IMG/VR virus record: IMGVR_UViG_3300028610_001524
Span: 1 to 27,032 of that record
Length of the DNA stretch: 27,032 nt
Direction: 5' to 3' (one strand)
Source: a virus
Both the position numbers and the translations under genes were made by a program. Positions 20,861-21,394 of this stretch are shown here, piece after piece. The notes beneath the pieces are model-generated. The model saw only the letters and a list, made by a program, of their open reading frames with translations. It did not search any database and was not told the DNA's origin. The stretch's first letter is position 1; the number at the start of each line of letters is the position of its first letter.

Positions 20861-20976
20861 TGGTGGAGGCGGCGAGAATCGAACTCGCGTCCAGACAGGT
20901 GCGCCGGGTGTTTGCGTGGGCCTTTCCCGGTGGGGTTTCTCACCCCTGTCCTGCCTGTCGAATACCTGTCGCCCCC
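20861..20976 (-). ncRNA. 116-nt tmRNA-like RNA lacking tag and pseudoknot region
   Basis: RNA nucleotide n equals genome 20977 minus n. The acceptor stem pairs GGGGGCG (1-7) with CGCCTCC (106-112), including G3-U70, the alanine identity pair. A113 and an encoded CCA follow. The T-arm is GCGAG/CTCGC with loop TTCGATT (89-105). After the acceptor comes ACAGGTATTCGAC, matching the tmRNA-specific D-loop motif, and the 3' end GGACGCGAGTTCGATTC matches bacterial tmRNA. P2-like helix: GACAGG (18-23) with CCTGTC (78-83). Between them lie hairpins GGGGT/ACCCC (31-45) and CCGGG/CCCGG (47-73). There is no anticodon arm with U33, so it is not an ordinary tRNA. Normal one-piece tmRNA is about 350 nt with a tag frame and pseudoknots. 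Here only about 54 nt lie inside P2, and no tag frame ending in a stop is present. It starts one base after an upstream stop codon, so processing (for example by RNase P) would be needed. Confidence 0.8.
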
Positions 20977-20977
20977 G

Positions 20978-21394
20978 TTAGACTTCGAACACGATCGGAA
21001 AGCCGCCGAAGGCGCCTTGGCTCTTGTAGGTTGTCGTCGCCATAGGATCAAGTGCCATGACCCCGGTCACCGAGAACGGCGCCACTGGTGCACGATCGTG
21101 TTTGTCGACAAGCACGATGGTCTTCAGGTCCAGGATCCAGGTCTCGATCTCTATGGAGTCTACGGTCAGGTCATGCTTGACACACACAGCCCACTGTGCT
21201 GACTTGCGAGGTTCCCGGTAGGAAGACTTCACACCGTTGTCCCGAGCATGGCGCTGGCCTGCCAGATACTTGGCTGCCTTCATACCTACGGCCATCATCA
21301 TCTCGTGAGTGACAGCACGGCGTAGATCTCCTACGGTGGCGCCGGCATGCAACATCCGGTTTGCCATCTCGGAAGCGGCTAGACGATAGTTCAT
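20978..21394 (-). CDS. Unknown protein, last coding gene before the tmRNA-like RNA
   Basis: A 138-residue protein, ATG at 21394 overlapping the RuvC-like stop (ATGA) and preceded by TAGGAG. The N-terminal half is helical (LAASEMANRMLHAGATVGDL, then EMMMAVGMKAAKYLAGQRHA). The C-terminal half is beta-rich (ETWILDLKTIVLVDKHD, APVAPFSVTGVMALDP). I do not recognise a family. Its stop TAA is separated by a single base from the RNA's first G. Confidence 0.7.
   Translation of the reverse strand: MNYRLAASEMANRMLHAGATVGDLRRAVTHEMMMAVGMKAAKYLAGQRHARDNGVKSSYREPRKSAQWAVCVKHDLTVDSIEIETWILDLKTIVLVDKHDRAPVAPFSVTGVMALDPMATTTYKSQGAFGGFPIVFEV

Follow-up and report, generated by a model that had tools for sequence, protein, structure and literature searches.

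A tmRNA-like RNA at the end of a phage gene block

The window, which is the whole 27,032-nt stretch of viral DNA that was analysed, contains a 116-nt RNA gene, the last in a minus-strand block that holds MazG, dGTP-hydrolase, exonuclease and DNA polymerase genes. A RuvC-like gene and a small ORF precede the RNA, and the tail genes are convergent to the block. The position given in the preliminary description stood, and the strand was corrected to minus. The features of the locus are as follows.

20978-21394, minus strand: small ORF with no assigned function, with its stop codon 1 nt before the 5' end of the RNA
20861-20976, minus strand: mini-tmRNA of 116 nt, a tRNA-like domain that has no tag and carries a short structured insert (RF00023 and R1)
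20970-20976, minus strand: acceptor stem 5' strand GGGGGCG, RNA nt 1-7 (fold)
20958-20969, minus strand: D-loop-like segment ACAGGTATTCGA, RNA nt 8-19 (sequence and cmscan alignment)
20950-20957, minus strand: P2 helix 5' strand, RNA nt 20-27 (fold and class-wide covariation)
20932-20946, minus strand: inner hairpin A, GGGGU-GAGAA-ACCCC, RNA nt 31-45 (fold)
20904-20930, minus strand: inner hairpin B, CCGGG-AAAGGCCCACGCAAACA-CCCGG, RNA nt 47-73 (fold and post hoc motif comparison)
20892-20899, minus strand: P2 helix 3' strand, RNA nt 78-85 (fold)
20872-20888, minus strand: T-arm GCGAG-TTCGATT-CTCGC, RNA nt 89-105 (fold and cmscan)
20861-20871, minus strand: acceptor stem 3' strand CGCCTCC, with the G3-U70 pair, and encoded A73-CCA (fold)

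Using cmscan with Rfam, we obtained a tmRNA match (RF00023) at 20976→20861 on the minus strand with a score of 70 bits (E 1.5e-25; cut-off 47), which was the sole Rfam match in the whole 27-kb IMG/VR virus record. The alignment covers both ends of the RNA, spanning model positions 1-374 with approximately 300 positions skipped. The same ends were recovered with R1, a covariance model for the tRNA-like domain (TLD) alone that was built from the 81-nt forms described below and that scored the RNA at 54.1 bits (E 5.2e-10). A strict search for the acceptor, TTCGAC and T-arm gave one match in the window and none in 5 Mb of random sequence generated as an order-1 Markov sequence with the composition of the window. 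The minimum-energy fold is identical to the centroid (-50.9 kcal/mol, z -3.0), with none of 200 shuffles as good, and features a 7-bp acceptor with G3-U70, an 8-bp P2, two inner hairpins, a 5-bp T-stem and an ACCA end; the tmRNA motif ATTCGAC lies within the D-loop-like segment plus RNA nt 20. Fold and cmscan thereby agree with the preliminary description, which had read the ends (seven-pair acceptor with G3-U70, T-arm, CCA and ATTCGAC) as diagnostic of tmRNA and a P2-type helix as closing the domain. Its estimate of about 54 nt inside P2 becomes 50 nt in the fold. These 50 nt form two simple hairpins, with a single small pseudoknot formally possible, which leaves no room for the usual pseudoknots, as had been anticipated; the pseudoknot set that surrounds the message of a tagging tmRNA is absent. 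ARAGORN reported no tmRNA at 20861-20976 and no tRNA genes anywhere in the record. The RNA also lacks the anticodon arm and anticodon of a tRNA-Ala, with no RF00005 match above the cut-off.

We also searched the RNA for a tag. Among in-frame readings that start after the TTCGAC motif and before the T-arm and run from a GCN codon to a stop, just one, AGQG*, exceeds three codons; it begins inside P2 and is not a usable tag. In the control for this script, a tag ending in AA was recovered from 9 of 13 full-length tmRNA sequences. The resume codon, tag frame and stop of a tagging tmRNA are thus missing, in line with the earlier claim that no tag frame with a stop is present, and we rejected the insert as a tag-bearing mini-message. 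Taken together, with a score above the RF00023 cut-off and with its acceptor with G3-U70, TTCGAC, T-arm and P2, the 116-nt RNA is a phage-encoded tmRNA tRNA-like domain without a tag message. The elements for AlaRS, the D-loop and the T-arm are present, and the ends are predicted from sequence to be chargeable and to bind SmpB, as had been proposed.

No promoter-like site was seen between the ORF at 20978-21394 and the RNA, which suggests that the two are co-transcribed and that the RNA is released from a longer transcript by RNase P. No match to a tyrosine integrase (PF00589) was found in the window, which may hold a fragment of the phage. A search with the DNA polymerase found no kin of the window phage, and one with a tail protein found three loci (36-41% identical), all without the RNA. 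Because the nearest relatives found lack it, the RNA is accessory in this lineage.

Short tag-less forms recur in viral sequences

We scanned IMG/VR with a pattern consisting only of GGG, TTCGAC, a T-arm and TCCA at two spacings. Spacing 16-46 returned at least 120 loci, and after filtering for a fully paired acceptor and T-stem there were at least 110 viral loci of 74-92 nt, at least 72 of them non-redundant. Of the 14 loci returned with spacing 47-77, 12 are convincing forms of 98-127 nt (L011, L024, L032, L039, L088, L099, L142, L143, L144, L157, L158 and L159), a rarer group than the 74-92-nt forms; the 116-nt RNA is a further member. For a collection as large as this one, we estimate fewer than one chance occurrence of the pattern. 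Tandem tRNAs were false positives that dominated the first loose scans and most of the genome-contig scan. Ordinary tRNAs scored at most about 32 bits with R1. No R1 match was found among the 11 candidates scored in each of approximately 790 bacterial genomes, a depth that says little about absence.

Although P2 played no part in selecting the 72 sequences, pairs 2-7 of this helix are paired in 61-70 of the 72 among the matches listed, compared with approximately 29-35 when partners are shuffled. Furthermore, 16 of 23 RNAalifold pairs changed on both sides in a 24-sequence alignment. This covariation, which the preliminary description had named as a check, also counters its objection that the locus might be an assembly deletion of a full-length tmRNA: we reject such a deletion because the acceptor and the covarying P2 are intact and because independent short forms exist. 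Homologous short forms, which it had asked for in related phages, were present in many other phages in IMG/VR and absent from the nearest relatives found.

ARAGORN missed every tag-less RNA in the 34 loci tested, with L135 giving only a spurious 734-nt tmRNA. Because this usual annotator does not detect these RNAs, the class has so far been missed. No description of a wider class of tag-less phage RNAs was found in the open-access literature, most subscription papers lying outside the search.

Several of the 98-127-nt forms have a common hairpin with a long loop containing AA(N)GCSC, and the counterpart in the 116-nt RNA is inner hairpin B, whose loop resembles the others. We found the motif AA-N0-3-GC[CG]C in 9 of the 14 inserts versus a shuffled mean of 1.7; it was picked after viewing the sequences, and we treat the enrichment as a lead only.

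Carriers and genomic placement

Through a combination of blastn, R1 and Rfam checks, we established as carriers the Streptomyces phages Karimac, LuckySocke, pSt2308 and BRock, Pontimonas phage phiPsal1 and Stenotrophomonas virus Jojan60, and in none of them is the TLD-only RNA annotated as such. Approximately 35 further Karimac-like records are candidate carriers by blastn, in which they match over 98% of the query. Matches by blastn to full-length or permuted tmRNAs and to integrase-linked att sites were set apart by R1 and Rfam. In Karimac (MH590599), the TLD-only RNA (86164-86244) is unannotated within a tRNA array, and an annotated full-length tmRNA (97752-98032) with the tag ANSNVASAYALAA lies 11.5 kb away and differs from it in sequence. 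Because Karimac carries both, the TLD-only RNA is not a simple replacement for full-length tmRNA. The two forms also occur together in the 123-kb record behind L176, and their coexistence in Karimac and G024 suggests that the short RNA does something that the long one does not. The record behind L222 contains two short RNAs. None of 50 carriers encodes SmpB, which indicates that a host partner is needed, and a tyrosine integrase was found in 4 of the 50.

The placement of the RNA recurs in several groups of phages. It lies between the head protease and major capsid genes in L166, L239 and phiPsal1 (46-64% identity among their capsid proteins) and beside a DnaB-like helicase gene in L189, L209 and L215. 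In L185, L204 and L218 it lies near members of phrog_11717, a protein family without assigned function, whose proteins are 34-77% identical. A position that stays constant across diverging proteins is suggestive of selection. An RNA working by titration would be well served by a head operon with high output. The 102-nt form L158 lies between terminase and portal. Many tag-less copies sit in tRNA arrays, tRNA genes are missing nearby at about half of the loci examined, the RNA is antisense to its neighbours in L185 and L218, and an RNA ligase is encoded near the RNA in LuckySocke.

Comparison with known tmRNA forms

The tmRNA of mycobacteriophage DS6A (tmRNA Website tmID 11587) is listed as 'TLD only' (PMC4131195), which overturns the earlier statement that nothing like the 116-nt RNA was known in phages. 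Both are phage-encoded, with a tRNA-like domain, which is complete in the 116-nt RNA, standard gene order and no tag frame. In contrast to DS6A, which is described as little more than a TLD, the 116-nt RNA contains the 50-nt insert with two hairpins in P2. It exceeds the typical 81-nt form, from which R1 was built, by approximately 35 nt and yet scores 54.1 bits with that model. Going by the description of DS6A, we conclude that the 116-nt RNA is a variant of a known, scarcely described DS6A-type TLD-only phage tmRNA.

With full-length one-piece tmRNA (RF00023, including phage copies such as that of Karimac), the RNA shares the G3-U70 acceptor, TTCGAC, P2, T-arm and CCA, whereas the full-length molecule is approximately 280-390 nt long and has the resume codon, tag, stop and pseudoknots that the 116-nt RNA lacks. 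Mitochondrial frame-less tmRNA (RF02544) and the ~65-bp CDS-less plastid forms of Mallomonadaceae (PMC11915505) likewise keep the tRNA-like domain and have lost the message. However, these forms are organellar, with nucleus-encoded SmpB as partner, and the mitochondrial genes are mostly permuted, whereas the 116-nt RNA belongs to a phage. Permuted two-piece tmRNA genes (RF04321; JWDelta, S-CRM01, Melnitz) are also borne by phages, but they are circularly permuted and encode a tag, whereas the 116-nt RNA gene is one piece in standard order.

Possible functions

Having kept the parts for alanylation (G3-U70, AlaRS), EF-Tu and SmpB and lost the message, the RNA is most naturally read, as the preliminary description suggested, as blocking or redirecting trans-translation or using it without a tag. 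Two reports bear on this point. A molecule like the DS6A TLD-only RNA, chargeable or not, inhibited tmRNA strongly, perhaps through titration of SmpB (PMC4131195), and a TLD-only molecule is reported to inhibit tmRNA in E. coli (PMC11915505, citing Mao et al., 2009). Because the needed parts are kept and the message lost, and given the DS6A precedent and the inhibition by a similar molecule, we consider it most likely that the RNA functions by competing with the tmRNA of the host, be it for SmpB, for charging or for ribosomes that have stalled, with a confidence that is evenly balanced. RNase P would cut the 116-nt RNA from a longer early or middle transcript, host AlaRS would charge it with alanine, and host SmpB and EF-Tu would bind it. 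Tagging would be impossible, there being no resume codon and no stop. By analogy with the DS6A-type experiment, host trans-translation would then be lowered during infection as the RNA competes for its components, and phage products from nonstop or stalled mRNAs could escape tagging and destruction, or phage translation could be otherwise protected. The recurrent placement in core operons, the lack of SmpB genes among the 50 carriers and the occurrence of the short form beside a full-length tmRNA favor competition. Other observations count against it. The RNA is missing from the closest relatives recovered for the window phage. Inserts of the 98-127-nt forms show some structural conservation, for which a pure decoy would have no use. 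In addition, a phage with a full-length tmRNA of its own would seem to favor trans-translation over its inhibition. We hold more tentatively a broader view that combines two claims, namely that phages widely encode tag-less mini-tmRNAs as an unannotated class of RNA that usurps or shuts off host trans-translation, and that the 98-127-nt insert has a function of its own, e.g., peptide release or ribosome binding without tagging.

The retention of all charging, SmpB and EF-Tu elements, as well as the coexisting full-length tmRNA in Karimac and G024, would also be consistent with tag-less rescue, in which the alanylated RNA with SmpB takes the nascent chain in a stalled ribosome and permits recycling without a degradation tag. 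Recycling would occur spontaneously or via host ArfA or ArfB, and truncated phage proteins would survive. Mitochondrial tmRNA that lacks a CDS could still be of use with incomplete mRNAs (PMC11915505), and the same function has been proposed for mitochondrial tmRNA without a reading frame. We consider such rescue unlikely, since no codon is available to move to after peptidyl transfer and release would need another factor, and since inhibition is what was reported for a TLD-only RNA in E. coli. Placement within operons, as little as 1 nt after a stop codon in the window phage and, in three phages, between the genes for head protease and capsid, raises the alternative of a tRNA-like processing element, at which RNase P and 3' processing would cut the polycistronic mRNA and so determine the ends, or the stability, of neighbouring messages. 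This alternative is improbable: the conserved features are specific to tmRNA (G3-U70, TTCGAC, GGAC after P2) rather than to any tRNA-like fold, many copies sit in tRNA arrays instead of between core genes, and the copies in L185 and L218 are antisense to their neighbours.

The large tRNA arrays around the RNA in several carriers, and the RNA ligase nearby in LuckySocke, could instead point to a role against host defences that cleave tRNA or tmRNA, with the RNA serving as a decoy or as a spare part; only the tRNA-like part would then matter, and the message would be dropped. Given the absence of tRNA genes near about half of the loci examined and of any anticodon to protect or replace, we regard such a role as highly improbable. 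The ssrA gene is an integration site for many temperate phages, and sites of this kind account for some of the blastn matches near integrases (Yeezy, BaxterFox, TPA4, prophiGD12-2). That the RNAs are decayed tmRNA genes or attP copies of host ssrA is nevertheless scarcely credible, as both ends, the acceptor and P2 are intact and covarying and tyrosine integrases are confined to 4 of 50 carriers. An attP derived from host ssrA, with an integrase present and only the 3' end kept, was rejected for the window phage, in which both RNA ends are kept and PF00589 had no match in a record that may be a fragment.

If these RNAs block or redirect trans-translation, they would represent a common takeover, by RNA, of a quality-control system found in nearly all bacteria, and phages may commonly use mini-RNAs to jam or bypass the host rescue system. 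To our knowledge, few phage anti-host RNAs have a defined target. Because culturable carriers exist (Karimac, LuckySocke, phiPsal1, Jojan60), the natural role of TLD-only tmRNA is directly testable, and Karimac is useful for this purpose in having the short and full-length RNAs in one genome.

Further short forms

Mini-tmRNAs were also observed in two bacterial metagenome-assembled genomes (MAGs). A 111-nt form in an Uhrbacteria MAG (G051; L289, 1414-1524) adjoins a DNA polymerase III delta' gene in a chromosomal-looking context, with a full-length tmRNA on a different contig, and this type was absent from two other genomes of the same family. A 127-nt form in a Chloroflexi MAG (G050; L295, 778-904), which also has a full-length tmRNA, is flanked by ORFs without a Pfam match. 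Five marine-type contigs (L019, L035, L038, L041 and L042) have in common a TGTATGAAG-like block that precedes a tmRNA T-arm and lack an acceptor upstream that could pair; these loci are probably acceptor pieces of permuted tmRNAs. Finally, an 85-nt form in L169 (3234-3318) and L220 has the loop GCA GCG GGU GGU GCC GCG UAG, which reads AAGGAA* and may be the six-residue tag of a tiny tmRNA, or may have arisen by chance.
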